Part shown: in pieces, positions 4,415 through 35,395 of the stretch
How the letters are laid out: the number at the start of each line of letters is the position of its first letter
Numbering within the stretch: the first letter of the stretch is position 1
Assembly (NCBI GenBank): GCA_013298845.1
Contig: JAAFJN010000010.1
Coordinates: 75,019 to 139,018 of the forward strand
From: Chitinophagales bacterium
Lineage (GTDB): Bacteria > Bacteroidota > Bacteroidia > Chitinophagales > Saprospiraceae
Direction: 5' to 3'
Length of the DNA: 64,000 nt
Position numbers and translations under genes: made by a program
The notes under the pieces: generated by a model
The model's database searches: none
What the model was told of the DNA's origin: nothing
The model's input: only the letters and a program-made list of their open reading frames with translations

Positions 4415-4831
4415 ATGGCGAAAGATATTTTTCACTATGCTGTAAGAGCGGCATTGGAAGCGGATGGTTGGATTGTGACGGACGATCCTTACCGAATAAA
4501 AGCACTTGATACAAACTATGAGGTTGATATTGGTGCTGAGAAAATTGTGGCGGCAGAAAGGAATGGTAAAAAAATTGCAGTAGAGGTAAAAACTTTTGCA
4601 GGGCTTTCATTTACATATGAATTTCACGGTGCATTGGGCCAATATCTTAACTATGCTGCTTTTATGGAACTTCAGGATCCAGATCGAGTTTTATTTCTAG
4701 CCGTCTCAACTTCAGTGTATGAAAATTATTTTCAGCACCCTGCAATTATTTACATAGTTGAAAAATTTAGTCTAAACATTATTATTTTTGATCCAAATAA
4801 CAGCACAATAACCCAATGGCTACAAAAGTAA
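4415..4831 (+). CDS. xisH: XisH-family protein (fdxN-element excision controlling factor homologue)
   Basis: 138 residues. The opening MAKDIFHYAVRAALEADGW is characteristic of XisH. XisH proteins have a PD-(D/E)xK nuclease-like core, and the signature is visible: D38 in EVDIGAE and E57-x-K59 in AVEVKTF, followed by a helix with H and Q (YEFHGALGQYLNY). In Nostoc/Anabaena XisH is required with XisI and XisF for excision of the fdxN element; elsewhere the XisH/XisI pair occurs without any such element and has an unknown function. The 3' end overlaps xisI by 16 nt, so the two are translationally coupled. The nuclease role is family knowledge plus motif, not shown here. Confidence 0.93.
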   Translation: MAKDIFHYAVRAALEADGWIVTDDPYRIKALDTNYEVDIGAEKIVAAERNGKKIAVEVKTFAGLSFTYEFHGALGQYLNYAAFMELQDPDRVLFLAVSTSVYENYFQHPAIIYIVEKFSLNIIIFDPNNSTITQWLQK

Positions 4832-5154
4832 AAAAATACGAAAAAGTATTGGCCGAATGGATGCGGGAGTTTGCCCAAGAGCGCACCAGCCCCGAACTCG
4901 AATATCAATTCATTCAAGATAAAGACACCAAAAATTTACAGGTAGTACGTTCCGGCTGGGATAACAACCGTTATTTATACCTGGTACTATTTCATTTTCA
5001 AATAAAAGAAAATGGAAGGATATGGGTTTTTGCCAATAATACCGATATTGACTTAGAGCGGGTTTTTCAGGATTTATCTATCCCTAAAAGTGAAATTGTA
5101 CCTGCCTTTCAACCCGTTTATATGCGCACTTACGCCGGTTTTGCCGAAGCGTAA
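4816..5154 (+). CDS. xisI: XisI-family protein, partner of XisH
   Basis: 112 residues, typical XisI length. Diagnostic features are YEKVLAEWMREFA at the start, the central YQFIQDKDTKNLQVVRSGW and the end IVPAFQPVYMRTYAGFA. The start ATG lies inside the last codons of xisH (16-nt overlap), consistent with a stoichiometric pair. XisI is the non-nuclease partner and may control XisH, but this is inference. The stop codon is 12 bp from the convergent end of the propeller-phosphoesterase gene. Confidence 0.93.
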   Translation: MATKVKKYEKVLAEWMREFAQERTSPELEYQFIQDKDTKNLQVVRSGWDNNRYLYLVLFHFQIKENGRIWVFANNTDIDLERVFQDLSIPKSEIVPAFQPVYMRTYAGFAEA

Positions 5155-29992: not shown

Positions 29993-30073
29993 GGGGGGGC
30001 TTTTGGAGAAAGGTTATACTTTACGAATTTGCGCCGTTTAGTAGCAATTTTCGTAAAGCGATTGTTGTGTGTC

Positions 30074-31576
30074 TTATTTACTATACTCGCTAGGTTTTTT
30101 GGTATTACCATCTATTACAACCATCACCAATTTAGAAGGATAATCCACTTCTTGGTCTTCAAATCCGTGAACTTTGGGTGTTAGTAGTTTTATACTGTTT
30201 TGCGGAGCAGCGACAGGCAATTTCTTTTCTGTCAAATCCAAAATGCAAAGAATTGACAGTTGTTTAGAATTGGCCGAGGCATAAGCCACTGGTTGTTTTC
30301 CATATTTTTCATAAAGTTTGTCTCGATCCGAGATGCTCTTTTCAACTTTTAATTCTACTATAAGACCTCGATATCCTATTTCGATTCTTCCTCCTGCAAG
30401 GTGAGATTCTTTGGATATTTCTTCACCTAGATAAGGCAATCCGATCAAATGTTGAATCAGTTTATCTCGAAAGTCATCCTCTGAAACCTTATTTTGGCCT
30501 TTATACACCCCTTGTTGTACGCAAAAGCCTTGATAATTAAGAATACCACTTAATAGGTGTAAAAAATTCTCTTTCTCCTCTTTGTCGATTTGTGCTAATT
30601 CCTTACTAATTGTATTGGCAATATCCAGAACAATTTTGTTCATTTTTTTGAACCCTGTAATAAAATAACTTGAATTAGGGTCAAGTACCTTAAGGATTAA
30701 TTGATCATAACCAATAATTGTTGGATATATTGTATTGCCTTTGCTATTTTGGAAATATCCTAATAATCGTATAGAAATTAACTCGTCAAAAGTGCTTTGA
30801 GGATATTTGAAAACTATATGTCCGGCGATATTATACTCTTTATTGGTTTCTTTTTTGATTTCAGGAATTGAAAGATTGAACCATTCATTGCTAGAAGTTG
30901 AAACTGGCTTTAGGATCAATATATCAAAACCTTCTGGCCACTCATTGAGTGACAACTTGCCTTTTATTGTATATAATTCTTCAGGTTTTAGGATTTGGGG
31001 ATTGGCCCAAGGCTCACCATCAATAGTGAATTGAAGAGAGAGTAAAATGATCTTGTCATCTTCTTGGCTCTGTGATTGGGGATTAAAATTTCCACGCAAA
31101 CCTTGCATAGGGTCAACAATAAATGAAAATATGGTAGGAAATGAAATCTTAGTAAAAGATGTTAAAACCTCTTGTATTTCACTTATTTCTGATATCTGCT
31201 TAATTGATTCACAAACCGCTTGGAAACTGTCTCGAAAATCAGGAATATGATTGAAGTACTCAAAATTAATTTGCTTAATATGGGTTTTACTGGCCTTTAA
31301 ATTGTTTAAACCATCTTCTGCATTCATTTCTTTTTGTGCCCATCTTAGTAAGTGGAATAATGATGAAACAAAATAATCGTAATACCTAAAAAAATCTTTA
31401 TCAGATGATTCTTTTGTCGCTTTGATGAGCTTGTTAAGTTCCAGTTTTACGGCCTCCTCCAAGATCAATACTTCTCCCACCTTGGAAATCTCGAACTCAA
31501 AAAAACTCTTAAGTAAAAGAGTTCTAAGATTTTCTTGAGAACTAACTAAATCAGGATTATATTGTCTATATTTCAT
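30074..31576 (-). CDS. Putative PD-(D/E)xK nuclease-like protein, second gene of an accessory operon
   Basis: 500 residues, not recognised as a named family. Residues 1-140 are helical; 150-300 look beta-rich (LLSLQFTIDGEPWANPQILKP, HIVFKYPQSTFDELISIRLLGYF). The C-terminal about 150 residues carry a restriction-endonuclease-like signature: a helix with acidic residues (SEDDFRDKLIQHLIGLPYLG), E399 in GGRIEIG, E408-L-K410 in LIVELKVEK and Q428 in GKQPVAYA, followed by strand LSILCILDL. The start ATG overlaps the TGA of the HEAT-like gene (ATGA), so the two are coupled. The gene is visibly AT-rich against its neighbours, suggesting transfer. No P-loop, methylase or specificity domain is present. 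Nuclease activity is inferred from motif order only. Confidence 0.75.
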   Translation of the reverse strand: MKYRQYNPDLVSSQENLRTLLLKSFFEFEISKVGEVLILEEAVKLELNKLIKATKESSDKDFFRYYDYFVSSLFHLLRWAQKEMNAEDGLNNLKASKTHIKQINFEYFNHIPDFRDSFQAVCESIKQISEISEIQEVLTSFTKISFPTIFSFIVDPMQGLRGNFNPQSQSQEDDKIILLSLQFTIDGEPWANPQILKPEELYTIKGKLSLNEWPEGFDILILKPVSTSSNEWFNLSIPEIKKETNKEYNIAGHIVFKYPQSTFDELISIRLLGYFQNSKGNTIYPTIIGYDQLILKVLDPNSSYFITGFKKMNKIVLDIANTISKELAQIDKEEKENFLHLLSGILNYQGFCVQQGVYKGQNKVSEDDFRDKLIQHLIGLPYLGEEISKESHLAGGRIEIGYRGLIVELKVEKSISDRDKLYEKYGKQPVAYASANSKQLSILCILDLTEKKLPVAAPQNSIKLLTPKVHGFEDQEVDYPSKLVMVVIDGNTKKPSEYSK

Positions 31577-34251
31577 GGAGTATTCAGGGAATTAATAAAT
31601 GTTTTGTCAATTTGTTGGTTTAAAATCTTAATCTCAAATTCTGCTATATTTCCACATGTTTTATTCGTTTCAGTGAAAAATTCATTCGATATATTCTTCT
31701 CTACTGTTTTATCAAAATAACTTGATAACTCCAGCAATGGCTCATATAGTCTGAAATAGCCAAGAATACTATATAGGTCAAGTACGTCAAAATAATGCCC
31801 ATTGTGAATTTTTTCAATAACCAGTGTTTGGATCGTATTAAGTTGGTCTACAATAACCTGCTTAGGTATTTTATAGATCGTGGCAAACAAATCCTTTCGA
31901 CTATCAAAGGATGAGCTATGATAGTCAGGGTTGGTCCTGTACAGGAAACCTAAACATTGTTCCAACCATACCTTATTAAATTCATCATTCTGGTTACGGA
32001 TAAATGTCAGTTTTTTGATAAAATCAACATCTGTGTAGTAATCTCTTGTGTTGCAATATTTTGAAATATAACCATGAACGATTATAGAATATAATTTTGG
32101 GTTTTCTTTTGTCAAGAAAAGAAGGATATCTACAAGTTCCTCACAGTAATTGTAATCTTTCTCCTCATAATAGATTTTTTCCAGTGCTTCTATCCCAGAT
32201 ACCAGAACAAATTTTTGATTTTCATTGAGAAAAGGAAAAATCTTATAGGCCAAATTGGCCGCTCTCTTATGGATTACAACATAGCTGTTGACTACCGATT
32301 TTAAAACGATCTGTATTTGTTCTTCCTCAACTTCATTTGGAAACTTCTTAATTACGGAACCAAAGGCTTCAATAGCCTTTCCTTTAACACCTCTATCAAT
32401 ATCGTTCATGAATACCTTGATCATATCAATTAGAGTATTAGTGACTAACTGTTCATGCTTTTCAATCAAATGAGTTACAAAACTTATCGCTTCATATCGT
32501 ACATCTTTTGAATCAACATCGAGCAAAAAATTATAAATCGATGGTAATATTTCTGCTAATCTTAAGGGTTCTTTAACTGACCTTCTGATTATCGCAATTA
32601 ATTTACTTTTTAGAAGGCCGTCAGATGAGCTCTTCAGGCTTGGAATAATATTTATAATTTTATTATAGTTGTCTGTTTTGTCATTTGAGATCAAATATCC
32701 AATTATTGATTCTGTTTTTTTGATTGTTCGCTCAATTTCCATCCCTATTAAGTTCCTTTCGATGTAAGTCTTCCCCTGCAATGGGTTAAAGGTAGAGATT
32801 TTACCATTTGGGTCTTCCAATTCACTCTGATACCACTTAAATGTGTTATATGCTTTGATCTGATCGACTAAATAACCTATTAATGAATCAAAATAATTTA
32901 ATAAAATACTGGCGCGTCTCTTTGAAACATCTTGTAATACTGATAATACCTCTTCTCGAAGGTCTTTTGTCGTCTCCTTTGCAAAAATTATTTGTAGTAA
33001 CTTTCTGACAATTATATCAGTATATTCTTGAGATTTGGCGATAAGATCATCCTTTAGTAAAACCAGTTTAAAGAAATGAATAAATCCTATCTTTGCTCCA
33101 TTGGTCAAGATGGGGAAGGATTTCGCAACTTGATCCATCACTTCTTCTTGATAGTACCTATACAATTCACTTAAAGTTTGACAAGTGATCGCATCGGCAG
33201 AATCTTCATAATTATCATCTTCCAATTCTAGCGATATAATAATTGTTTTGCAAAGCGATATGACTGATTCAGGATTGGCGGCAATTAAATCTTGCGATAG
33301 AAAGTTTGTATTTATTCTAATTTTTTTGTCATTTATTTTAAATTTCTCATCCAAAAGTTTGAAAAGAAGCCCTGAAGATTGTTTGTGCACGTCTAGAAGC
33401 AAGGAAATAGAATTAGGGTAAGATGGGCGGTTATCATATGGCTCTCCAATATTACGCTTAAACCATAAATAATCCAAAATTTTCTTTAGAAAGGGTTCGT
33501 ATTTGTCAATACTTTCCCATTCAATTACTAATTTTAGAACACTAGCAGTTTCATCAATATGTCTACCTTTTTCAATTGTTCGTACTAGTCTTTCAAAACT
33601 GAATGAGGAAATTTTTTTGCCAGTACGAAAGATATTTTGAGTTGTGTGAAGAATCATTGCACCAATTTCTTCATCATCAAAAAAAAGTGAGAGATAGTCT
33701 AGTGCAATTTCTCCAAAGAAGCTTGGAGAAATCTTAGATGCTTCAATAATCTTTTTAGATACTTTTTTACGCTCACCATCAATTCCTATTAATTGGATCA
33801 AATTCAAAATTGATAATTCGGTAATTTCAGATTTTGACTTTTCTTTAGCAATTAAAACTTCAACTTGTTCTTTTAATGCTTGTTTTTTTTGTTCCTCCTC
33901 TTTTTCTGCCTTGATTGCCTTTTCTTGATGCTCTTGATACTTGTGTATAACATCTCTACCAAAATTTGTTTCATGAACTTCGGTATGAAATTTGCATGAA
34001 CGACAATGTTTAATTATAAAATCGTGAGCGTTCCATTCGAAATTCATTGCTTCATAAACTCCATTGGCGTGAGGACAAGAAACTCGTAAAGTGATAGGGA
34101 GTTTATAGGCTTCAGCAGCAACACCCCCTGAAACATCTGCTATTTCTATGTGGGCACACCAATTTTTCACCTGAGGAATAAGTTCTTTATTCTTCTTTCC
34201 AAGAGTTATAGTCTCTTTTAAACGCTTATCAGTATCATCCTGCTTTGACAT
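31573..34251 (-). CDS. Large HEAT-like repeat protein with N-terminal Cys/His cluster, first gene of an accessory operon
   Basis: 892 residues, family not recognised. Residues 1-100 hold a possible zinc site: C32, C59-x-H61 and C83-x2-C86 (HCRSCKFH). A charged coiled coil follows at about 104-140 (KAEKEEEQKKQALKEQ). From about 150 to the end the protein is a long alpha-helical solenoid resembling HEAT/ARM repeats, clearest at 550-720 (VKGKAIEAFGSVIKKFPNEV, DVRYEAISFVTHLIEKHEQ). No enzyme motif was found, so a recognition or scaffold role for the coupled nuclease-like protein is likely. AT-rich codon use (many TTA, ATA, AAA) differs from the flanks. It has its own promoter at 34274-34303. Confidence 0.75.
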   Translation of the reverse strand: MSKQDDTDKRLKETITLGKKNKELIPQVKNWCAHIEIADVSGGVAAEAYKLPITLRVSCPHANGVYEAMNFEWNAHDFIIKHCRSCKFHTEVHETNFGRDVIHKYQEHQEKAIKAEKEEEQKKQALKEQVEVLIAKEKSKSEITELSILNLIQLIGIDGERKKVSKKIIEASKISPSFFGEIALDYLSLFFDDEEIGAMILHTTQNIFRTGKKISSFSFERLVRTIEKGRHIDETASVLKLVIEWESIDKYEPFLKKILDYLWFKRNIGEPYDNRPSYPNSISLLLDVHKQSSGLLFKLLDEKFKINDKKIRINTNFLSQDLIAANPESVISLCKTIIISLELEDDNYEDSADAITCQTLSELYRYYQEEVMDQVAKSFPILTNGAKIGFIHFFKLVLLKDDLIAKSQEYTDIIVRKLLQIIFAKETTKDLREEVLSVLQDVSKRRASILLNYFDSLIGYLVDQIKAYNTFKWYQSELEDPNGKISTFNPLQGKTYIERNLIGMEIERTIKKTESIIGYLISNDKTDNYNKIINIIPSLKSSSDGLLKSKLIAIIRRSVKEPLRLAEILPSIYNFLLDVDSKDVRYEAISFVTHLIEKHEQLVTNTLIDMIKVFMNDIDRGVKGKAIEAFGSVIKKFPNEVEEEQIQIVLKSVVNSYVVIHKRAANLAYKIFPFLNENQKFVLVSGIEALEKIYYEEKDYNYCEELVDILLFLTKENPKLYSIIVHGYISKYCNTRDYYTDVDFIKKLTFIRNQNDEFNKVWLEQCLGFLYRTNPDYHSSSFDSRKDLFATIYKIPKQVIVDQLNTIQTLVIEKIHNGHYFDVLDLYSILGYFRLYEPLLELSSYFDKTVEKNISNEFFTETNKTCGNIAEFEIKILNQQIDKTFINSLNTP

Positions 34252-34273
34252 ATCTTACGCTTAAATATTTTCG

Positions 34274-34303
34274 CAAAACTACCCTTACCCGCAACCCCAA
34301 CAA
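34274..34303 (-). promoter_or_regulatory. Promoter of the HEAT-like/nuclease operon
   Basis: Minus-strand TAGTTTTG (plus CAAAACTA 34274-34281) with TTG -33 (plus CAA 34301-34303) exactly 19 nt upstream. The box ends 22 nt before the ATG at 34251. Confidence 0.7.
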
Positions 34304-34363
34304 ACCAAAACACGCAGCGCATCTTACTTTGTCGCTCTTGCGAATAACTAACTCCGTCCGCAC

Positions 34364-34407
34364 CAAAAAAACATCCCGCAACCTGCTAAGAAGCAGACTG
34401 CGGGATG
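34364..34407 (-). terminator. Intrinsic terminator with a 16-bp stem
   Basis: On the minus strand CATCCCGCA (34407-34399) pairs with TGCGGGATG (34380-34372); two G-T wobbles and CTGCT/AGCAG extend the stem to 16 bp with a TCTT tetraloop. Seven T follow at once. It lies 113 bp upstream of the HEAT-like ATG and also downstream of the nucleotidyltransferase gene. Confidence 0.85.
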
Positions 34408-34456
34408 GTGAAAACGGTTATGGCGGAGCAAATTATCATCAGAGTAAATGGTTCTT
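34364..34456 (-). ncRNA. Predicted small RNA (or 17-codon mRNA) of about 93 nt
   Basis: A self-contained minus-strand unit: promoter 34461-34490, predicted start 34456, and an intrinsic terminator ending in the T-tract at 34364-34370. Within it, ATG at 34439 opens a 17-codon frame (MIICSAITVFTIPQSAS) whose TAG at 34386-34388 lies in the upper stem of the terminator. It could be a regulatory or structural RNA, a micro-peptide mRNA, or simply the terminator of the upstream nucleotidyltransferase transcript with a fortuitous promoter. No known RNA family was recognised. Confidence 0.4.
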
Positions 34457-34460
34457 GATG

Positions 34461-34490
34461 CAAAGTTAAGTCCTTTTTTAAAACCACCAA
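34461..34490 (-). promoter_or_regulatory. Promoter of the small transcription unit
   Basis: Minus-strand TAACTTTG (plus CAAAGTTA 34461-34468) with TTG -33 (plus CAA 34488-34490) 19 nt upstream. It is part of an imperfect repeat whose second copy lies at 35296-35339. Confidence 0.6.
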
Positions 34491-34591
34491 AATTTTATAG
34501 GTCAATTTTTTATATGTTCAATTCATCTGTAGGGCTGCCAGGCCAAGCGGAAATGGCCGTCGTGGTGTTACCACTATATTCGCACACCGTT

Positions 34592-35056
34592 CTACTTTTT
34601 CCTTTTTTTTGTCTTTCGCTCAAGCGTTTGAGCGTCAACTTTGTCTTTTAGCCTTCCGGTAGAGCGCTTATTTTTGAGCAAATCATCATAGCCAATAAAA
34701 TGTATCGGAATTCCTTCAAAAGTGGCTTCTTGTCGTTGAGCAAAACAAGTATCAAAATCCAACCCTTCCAACTGAATAATAAGATCTATTCGGTTAGGTT
34801 CATAGCCTAATTGTATTATGTTATCAGGATCGGATAAGTCTTCTTGCTGCAAACCCAATGCACCAAAACCAAATTCTTGTACCGTTTTTAGCAGACGACC
34901 AGCGTTTTCTGGATCGGCCCAAACCCAGAAATCAATATCCTTTGTATAACGCGGATAGCCATGGTACGCCACAGCAAAGCCGCCTACAACCAAATATTTA
35001 ACCTCGTTTGCGTTTAATAATTTTATAAACTCTTTGAAATGTTCGTCCAGTACCAT
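34592..35056 (-). CDS. MNT-fold nucleotidyltransferase (AbiEii/DUF6036-like)
   Basis: 154 residues from the ATG at 35056 (an ATG at 35068 is possible); the longer reading to 35230 is a run through the upstream gene. The nucleotidyltransferase motif is clear: VKYLVVGGFAVAYHGYPRYTKDIDFWV with G25-G26 and D40-x-D42, and a third acidic D90 in PNRIDLII. LIGYDDLLKNK-like (HFIGYDDLLKNKRSTGRLKD) closes the domain. Such proteins are typical of type IV-like toxin-antitoxin or abortive-infection modules, adding nucleotides to a target. The start lies inside the preceding 68-residue gene (59-nt overlap). Ends in a very basic tail (ERKTKKRKK). Confidence 0.87.
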   Translation of the reverse strand: MVLDEHFKEFIKLLNANEVKYLVVGGFAVAYHGYPRYTKDIDFWVWADPENAGRLLKTVQEFGFGALGLQQEDLSDPDNIIQLGYEPNRIDLIIQLEGLDFDTCFAQRQEATFEGIPIHFIGYDDLLKNKRSTGRLKDKVDAQTLERKTKKRKK

Positions 35057-35204
35057 ATTTCCAATCATTATATTGTTTCCTGATTTCCTCCAAAGCGCGA
35101 ATTCGTTCAATTGCGGGGCGACTAAGCCAATAAAGCACGTCGTCAGGTTCCTGTCCTTTTTTATAAATCCGGACAAATGGACGATTTTCAGAACTGGGTT
35201 GCAT
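34998..35204 (-). CDS. Small partner protein of the nucleotidyltransferase
   Basis: 68 residues from the ATG at 35204, chosen because the promoter box ends 15 nt upstream; a start at 35267 would precede that box. PDDVLYWLSRPAIERIRALEEIRKQYNDW and TFQRVYKIIKRKRG match the small basic proteins that regularly precede DUF6036-like nucleotidyltransferases (from memory). The overlap with the enzyme gene suggests translational coupling. An antitoxin or guide role is inference. Confidence 0.78.
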   Translation of the reverse strand: MQPSSENRPFVRIYKKGQEPDDVLYWLSRPAIERIRALEEIRKQYNDWKYGTGRTFQRVYKIIKRKRG

Positions 35205-35219
35205 AATAATTCTTTTCTG

Positions 35220-35249
35220 CAAAAGTACAAAATTACGTTGAAATATCAA
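35220..35249 (-). promoter_or_regulatory. Promoter of the nucleotidyltransferase pair
   Basis: Minus-strand TACTTTTG (plus CAAAAGTA 35220-35227) with TTG -33 (plus CAA 35247-35249) 19 nt upstream. A second box (plus CAAAATTA 35228-35235) adjoins it. Confidence 0.7.
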
Positions 35250-35395
35250 TGCAGTTGTGATATTCAAATGTCTGGTAGTTAAACTAGTTCATTAGAAATG
35301 GTTATTGCGAAAAAGTTAAAGCATTTTTTTAAAACCACCCCACAACAAATCATTTTTTTCTCGTTCCTTTGCTCCCCTTAATTACAATTCACATA

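Follow-up and report, generated by a model that had tools for sequence, protein, structure and literature searches.

Which kind of system is encoded by the AT-rich gene pair at positions 30,074 to 34,456 of the stretch analysed here, 64 kb of contig JAAFJN010000010.1 from a Chitinophagales bacterium (below, the window)? A reading made from the sequence alone had seen a large helical protein coupled to a smaller one with a nuclease-like C terminus, and had proposed that the first recognises an invader or nucleic acid and the second cuts. The major result of the present analysis is that the two genes, here called gene 1 and gene 2, are a genuine two-gene system, conserved as a pair and found in varying loci. 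It is likely that this is a mobile defence system in which a HEAT/zinc protein (gene 1) would act as the sensor and gate a PD-(D/E)xK deoxyribonuclease (DNase) effector (gene 2). As a system the pair is probably undescribed: PADLOC holds only partial LmuA and OloB/OloA matches to it, and no description of a HEAT/zinc-nuclease pair was found in a literature search of titles and abstracts with limited reach into subscription papers.

A conserved gene pair in varying loci

The operon is made up of the following features.

31573 to 34251, minus strand: gene 1, an 892-residue zinc-domain/coiled-coil/HEAT protein, the proposed sensor or regulator (open reading frame, homologues, AlphaFold2 model)
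30074 to 31576, minus strand: gene 2, a 500-residue protein with a helical N terminus, a beta-sandwich and a C-terminal nuclease-like domain, the proposed effector (open reading frame, six full-length homologues)
31573 to 31576, minus strand: ATGA overlap of the gene 1 stop and the gene 2 start (sequence; overlapping frames in seven of seven loci)
34274 to 34304, minus strand: inner promoter-like TTTG-N19-TAnnTTTG site, 22 nt ahead of the start codon (pattern search)
34461 to 34491, minus strand: outer TTTG-N19-TAnnTTTG promoter-like site (pattern search)
30018 to 30059, minus strand: hairpin that follows the stop codon of gene 2 and resembles a terminator but has no U-run (fold −14.3 kcal/mol, z −4.6)

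Both open reading frames (ORFs) and the ATGA junction named by the sequence-only reading were confirmed at these positions, and the junction is read as translational coupling. The promoter that it reported was also found, in two copies, either of which may be the one meant; the motif, which we take to be the Bacteroidota promoter consensus, is matched five times in the window against 0.63 expected by chance. The AT-richness was equally borne out, as the 4178-bp pair has a GC content of 32.8% against a window median of 48.2% for stretches of the same size, and a scan in 100-base steps found no stretch of that length with a lower GC content anywhere in the window.

The pair was found in six other places: Gracilimonas, a Bacteriovoracales metagenome-assembled genome (MAG), a Rhodopirellula MAG, two cyanobacteria (a Calothrix MAG and G496, from the same order) and one IMG/VR viral contig. 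The window genome, which holds a single copy of gene 2, belongs to the same phylum as Gracilimonas. The conserved-domain scan of genome contigs yielded four relatives among 366 pattern matches, namely Gracilimonas amylolytica (the locus of the second phylum-sample genome described below) and the Bacteriovoracales, Rhodopirellula and Calothrix MAGs, while four scans of viral contigs yielded one relative in total (0 of 5, 0 of 58, 0 of 55 and 1 of 150 pattern matches). In related orders, relatives of gene 2 were present as follows: of 128 genomes around Gracilimonas only Gracilimonas itself had one, of 224 around Calothrix two did (Calothrix and G496), and of 170 around Rhodopirellula three did, namely Rhodopirellula and two genomes with more distant matches (E values of 4.3e-9 and 4.5e-6). 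The collections were reached through samples or with a small number of short patterns, which makes these counts minimum values. No match was obtained in phage records searched with gene 2 or in plasmid records searched with gene 1. Gene 2 had one match in plasmid records, a decayed remnant of its nuclease domain with stop codons upstream, on a plasmid of Rhizobium sp. WSM1274 (L032:6998-7372).

The pairing is constant. In all seven loci (the window, L037, L038, L039, L040, the viral contig L041 and L084) gene 2 is immediately preceded, on the same strand and with overlapping frames, by a HEAT-family gene, which is full length (834 to 892 residues) in five. Pairwise identities of gene 1 and gene 2 covary among these five intact systems (r 0.965 over 10 non-independent pairs). 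In the Rhodopirellula and Calothrix MAGs (L039:1855-2769 and L040:7103-7942) the HEAT gene is reduced to its C-terminal part, matching only in the C-terminal third (residues 554-849 and 604-858 of the L041 protein), and the nuclease ORF is open; since these are MAG contigs, decay and assembly error give indistinguishable pictures. The GC content of the pair was below that of the rest of the fetched locus in seven of seven loci, by 2 to 16 points, and in G496 the pair forms an AT-rich insertion (39.1% versus 48.6% GC). The sequence-only reading would have been contradicted by single, conserved housekeeping genes in syntenic positions. Instead, gene 1 occurred in 2 of 296 genomes sampled from the phylum and gene 2 in the same two, one of them the window's own, and the loci are non-syntenic.

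The nuclease-like domain of gene 2

The domains of gene 2 that bear on its function are the following.

30686 to 31132, minus strand: residues 149-297, immunoglobulin (Ig)-like beta-sandwich (AlphaFold2 strands; many Foldseek rows are Ig-like or pilin folds)
30077 to 30481, minus strand: residues 366-500, PD-(D/E)xK-type domain held in common with LmuA (nine-domain alignment, secondary-structure order)
30293 to 30382, minus strand: residues 399-428, with E399, E408-L-K410-V-E412 and Q428, putative active site (conservation)

The assignment of gene 2 as a probable nuclease was deduced from its motif, conservation, element order and homology to a defence effector, and not from a fold match. In an alignment of nine domains (seven pair proteins and two LmuA proteins), residues E366, G384, G395, G396, E408, K410, E412, Y425, Q428, Y432, L446, D447, G490, P495 and S496 were invariant. 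Position 399 is D in eight of the nine and E only in the window copy, so that the D/E ... (D/E)-x-K signature of the PD-(D/E)xK superfamily is kept across the homologues. The residues singled out beforehand (E399, E408-L-K410 and Q428) stand where they had been placed, and E408, K410 and Q428 are among those present in all nine. The AlphaFold2 model, computed from a six-row alignment, is poor overall; its usable parts are helices to residue 142, the beta-sandwich at 149-297 and helices at 308-378. The predicted C-terminal elements are a helix at 366-378, strands at 388-390, 398-402 and 405-412, a helix at 418-426 and a strand at 439-447, and within the limits of this model the order alpha-beta-beta-beta-alpha-beta fits a PD-(D/E)xK core. 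The same model puts E399 and E408-x-K410 on adjacent strands and Q428 just past the helix. Among the Foldseek matches listed, most were beta-sandwich folds, with STAT, Integrator and others besides, and many of the BFVD rows were uncharacterised. A PHROGs scan of gene 2 gave nothing convincing. A designed helical protein, obtained by PDB sequence search with the whole of gene 2 (0.089), was rejected as a chance-level match.

The homology to a defence effector came from PADLOC. The LmuA model (PDLC03853) matched gene 2 at 5.7e-18, with residues 312-500 aligned to model positions 458-654 of 655. The C-terminal 191 residues alone scored 65.7 bits with LmuA and retained 43.8 of the 61.4 bits obtained with OloB, and the remainder of the protein, split into two parts for the scan, matched nothing in PADLOC. 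Across 198 genomes of the phylum a C-terminal match to the LmuA model was seen only in the window genome and G159, with two others matching weakly elsewhere. Both distant matches from the Rhodopirellula order proved to be C termini, of proteins with 673 and 657 residues, and each protein belongs to a three-gene run that PADLOC assigned to LmuA, LmuB and LmuC, with scores of 188 and 483 bits for LmuA, 391 and 626 for LmuB, and 155 and 248 for LmuC. For these true LmuA proteins the match runs over 25-658 and 5-639 and takes in nearly the whole model. What gene 2 has in common with them is a C terminus carrying GG-x2-D/E, E-x-K-x-E, Q-x3-Y, LD and G-x(4)-PS. On this sequence evidence, the nuclease domain of gene 2 is one that also ends the effector of a Lamassu type. 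The sequence-only reading had recognised neither family; for the nuclease this no longer holds in full, as the LmuA model covers its C-terminal domain.

In the two LmuA-LmuB-LmuC runs (L085:8066-12881 and L086:8339-12952) the nuclease-like domain lies at the C terminus of LmuA and not at the N terminus. According to a review, the N-terminal domain of LmuA is the likely effector and the C-terminal domains vary (PMC10586767). A PDB sequence search with the LmuA of G656 gave no match.

These data raise the question of whether the pair is itself a Lamassu variant, divergent and with its SMC-like LmuB replaced, so that gene 2 would be LmuA and the HEAT protein would have the LmuB/LmuC role. The LmuA model does match the C-terminal domain in all four pair nucleases scanned (the window, L037, L041 and L084), and true LmuA proteins bear the domain at the same end. 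However, the match is limited to the last 130-200 residues, and the helical N terminus and beta-sandwich are unmatched, LmuA having no match to gene 2 outside the C-terminal domain. Furthermore, where Lamassu has the SMC-like LmuB together with LmuC, the pair has a HEAT/zinc partner, and the HEAT proteins of the window, L037, L041 and L084, the four of the seven put to PADLOC, had no LmuB or LmuC match. This reading was judged unlikely. In another review, Lamassu is entered as a DNA-cleaving system that senses DNA topology or ends (PMC12904381); since Lamassu cleaves DNA, DNA would by analogy be the likeliest substrate of gene 2.

The proposed HEAT/zinc protein of gene 1

The layout of gene 1 was deduced from its AlphaFold2 model and from conservation.

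33985 to 34161, minus strand: residues 31-89, W-C32-x-H34 ... C59 ... C83-x2-C86, putative zinc-binding domain (conservation, AlphaFold2)
33838 to 33963, minus strand: residues 97-138, long helix (coiled coil) (AlphaFold2 secondary structure)
31588 to 33819, minus strand: residues 145-888, HEAT-type alpha solenoid (AlphaFold2, Foldseek, Pfam HEAT)

The model was computed from a six-row alignment with two rows partial and had a mean predicted local distance difference test (pLDDT) of 77 and a predicted template modelling score (pTM) of 0.53. It comprises a small alpha/beta N-terminal domain (1-83), the long helix, whose pLDDT drops to about 50 near its end, and the solenoid. The putative zinc domain shows alpha/beta elements with pLDDT values of 68 to 85 per ten-residue block. 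Only six cysteines and histidines are invariant among the five intact copies: C32, H34, C59, C83, C86 and H661. The sequence-only reading had listed C32, C59, H61, C83 and C86; the positions are correct, but H61 is not conserved (H, H, Y, Y, Y across the five) and H34 is invariant. C334, C357, C703, C733, C766 and C866 of the window protein are unconserved in homologues. The invariant C32/H34/C59/C83/C86 pattern looks like a structural zinc site, from which zinc binding is proposed.

The coiled coil and helical solenoid claimed earlier both find counterparts in the model, the first in the long helix and the second in the HEAT-type solenoid. Foldseek gave 294 matches at E ≤0.001, of which the best 50 were mostly HEAT proteins, including CAND1, karyopherins and SF3B1. 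As the template modelling scores (TM-scores) were only about 0.2-0.3 over the whole length, the likeness is to the HEAT solenoid type and to no particular protein. Among the homologues, Pfam HEAT was at the cut-off for L041 (23.6 versus 23.5 bits), below it for L084 and L037, and unmatched for L038; for the window protein Cnd1 and Maestro-HEAT appeared below cut-off. The scans of gene 1 with Pfam and NCBIfam gave nothing above cut-off and PHROGs gave nothing convincing. As modelled, gene 1 is a HEAT-repeat alpha solenoid protein. The best matches of its profile to PDB sequences, CLIP-associating protein (0.0027) and caspase-3 (about 0.07), were rejected as generic or chance-level. Neither window protein matched a nucleoside triphosphatase (NTPase) family in the Pfam, NCBIfam and PADLOC scans.

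Gene 1 also enters into a second comparison, since PADLOC scored the window proteins as OloB (gene 2, 2.1e-17, 61 bits) and OloA (gene 1, 2.4e-8). Membership of Olokun would further fit the common layout of two coupled genes with the helical protein first and scores to parts of both models, and OloB also scored gene 2 of L037, L041 and L084 (44, 35 and 24 bits). For OloA, however, the HEAT proteins of three other loci gave no match, at E up to 1 for L037 and up to 0.001 for L041 and L084. The OloA model scored 16 of 296 phylum genomes and 2 of 14 controls; three of the 16 matches were strong and the other 13, the window among them, were weak (E 2e-6 to 1e-3). The OloA score of gene 1 was judged to be generic HEAT similarity. 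Pairs matching both Olokun models occurred in three genomes of the phylum sample, strongly in G170 and G207 and more weakly in G255 (80 and 81 bits). Against the OloA and OloB proteins of these three, BLASTP with the window proteins gave nothing below E 0.06, and hhalign with both families gave a probability of 0.1 of 100, from three Olokun sequences only. Membership was rejected on these two comparisons and is deemed very unlikely; the OloB score of the window, L037, L041 and L084 proteins tells against making the rejection a flat one. The OloB model, PDLC03926, scores window 30077-31576 with 61 bits for the whole protein and 44 bits for the C-terminal part, and it may hold a mixed seed.

Neighbourhoods and the proposed mechanism

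The sequence-only reading expected the two genes to co-occur in varying loci near defence genes. The constant pairing and the varying loci agree with this; defence genes were found beside one copy and at the corresponding site of a relative of the window genome. The Gracilimonas copy is flanked on one side by AbiEi/AbiEii and a split UG5-nitrilase DRT (reverse transcriptase) and on the other by a type I methylase. Neighbours from four loci were put to PADLOC (one ORF of the window, five of L037 and one each of L038 and L041); the window and L038 ORFs had no match and the L041 ORF was a methylase.

The relative is G385, of the same genus as the window, which has the most similar flank gene (an AAA/TPR protein, 96%). 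Only the right-hand side could be compared, in G385, where a DNA similarity of 88% starts at window 35335 and extends rightwards. Left of this homologous flank, on contig C317, stand HEC-01A/HEC-01B (L063:233-1965; PADLOC 482 and 245 bits), and a tyrosine-recombinase-like C-terminal fragment was read by eye at L063:10-207. The AAA/TPR gene has a close homologue (86-96%) in 2 of 15 other genomes of the genus, and the HEC-01 site beside this accessory gene is a candidate defence hotspot. An empty insertion site could not be demonstrated in G385, G389, G390 or G397: G385 has a different gene after ruvB, then the contig end, with the AAA/TPR gene on another contig; G389 and G390 have ruvB with other neighbours; and in G397 the contig ends inside ruvB. 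Elsewhere in the window, a second AT-rich two-gene insert (4415-5154, 36-40% GC) is presumably XisH/XisI-like.

Directly upstream of the window pair, at 34592-35267, a small ORF is followed by a nucleotidyltransferase-like ORF, for which NTP_transf_5, DUF2204 and AbiEii were below the Pfam cut-off and PADLOC gave no match; these ORFs are a possible toxin-antitoxin module. The pair itself could be a selfish module of this kind, with a nuclease toxin neutralised by the HEAT protein and element stabilisation as the main benefit. It is coupled, mobile and sporadic, AbiE lies beside the Gracilimonas copy, and the nucleotidyltransferase-like ORF lies beside the window copy. An antitoxin of 830-890 residues with a conserved zinc site would, however, be far bigger than required, and in the Rhodopirellula and Calothrix MAGs the nuclease ORF is open despite a cut-down HEAT gene, where a free toxin should not be tolerated unless the assemblies are in error. 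This explanation was considered quite improbable.

The viral-contig copy has on one side a ParB-N6 DNA methylase fusion (L041:4234-5805), which could mark self DNA, and on the other a large gene whose match to a primase fell below cut-off; genes for a terminase and a serine recombinase are close by. That setting, together with one copy near a TraD-like ATPase, would suit nucleic-acid processing or repair for mobile elements with no immune role. The other copies, however, are in chromosomes or MAG contigs with no phage or transfer genes recognised alongside, and the other home found for the domain is a Lamassu effector. The probability of such a role is deemed to be very small.

Several observations weigh against a gated defence nuclease. 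The gene 2 model has a mean pLDDT of 60 and a pTM of 0.42. The nuclease core had been expected to score to restriction-like folds; no restriction-type nuclease was present among the best 50 of 1043 PDB and the best 50 of 574 BFVD Foldseek matches. Gene 2 had no Pfam or NCBIfam match near cut-off, and a PDB sequence search with the nuclease domain gave no match. The window copy might be impaired, because it has E399 for D and is the most divergent of the five intact gene 2 copies (24-26% identity versus 35-44% among the other four). Finally, a defence island is evident only around the Gracilimonas copy, in loci of which four of seven had neighbours put to PADLOC, and the G496 copy sits among genes read as housekeeping.

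For a defence system with a gated nuclease, we infer the following steps. Gene 1 would give a large soluble HEAT solenoid carrying an N-terminal zinc domain and a coiled coil. In gene 2, the helices and Ig-like beta-sandwich would be the probable docking or regulatory part, with the PD-(D/E)xK DNase domain behind. The two proteins would form a complex, and the HEAT/zinc protein would keep the nuclease inactive or apart. The trigger would be its binding of a ligand derived from the invader (DNA, RNA or protein). The nuclease would then be released or oligomerise and would cut DNA, either the invader's or that of the whole cell, giving protection against phages or plasmids. With no NTPase family matched by either window protein, activation would depend on binding alone.

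Two known systems provide precedents for parts of this scheme. In DSR2 (SIR2-HEAT) a HEAT solenoid likewise serves for sensing in phage defence, and the HEAT repeats are reported to contact phage proteins that activate or inhibit DSR2 (PMC11263360). In contrast to the pair, its SIR2 NADase effector is in the same polypeptide, and the likeness meant here is one of architecture. Hachiman (HamA-HamB) is likewise encoded by two genes, and in it a nuclease is reported to be kept in check by a large sensor (PMC12278908). Its sensor, unlike gene 1, is a helicase, and the pair had no helicase match in Pfam, NCBIfam or PADLOC.

Taken further, one DNase module may operate under two unrelated sensors, SMC loops in Lamassu and, in the present pair, an NTPase-free zinc-HEAT solenoid that recognises the invader by direct binding; we put this forward tentatively, as a possibility somewhat short of an even chance. 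If true, this would make the pair a widespread immune system free of NTPases, with the swapping of sensors on a fixed effector traceable in sequence. The gated-nuclease reading itself, if right, would add a sensor-nuclease immune system that PADLOC has only as partial matches, would make the Lamassu-type nuclease domain a portable effector, and would raise the question of how one nuclease domain is gated by an SMC complex in one case and by a HEAT/zinc protein in the other.

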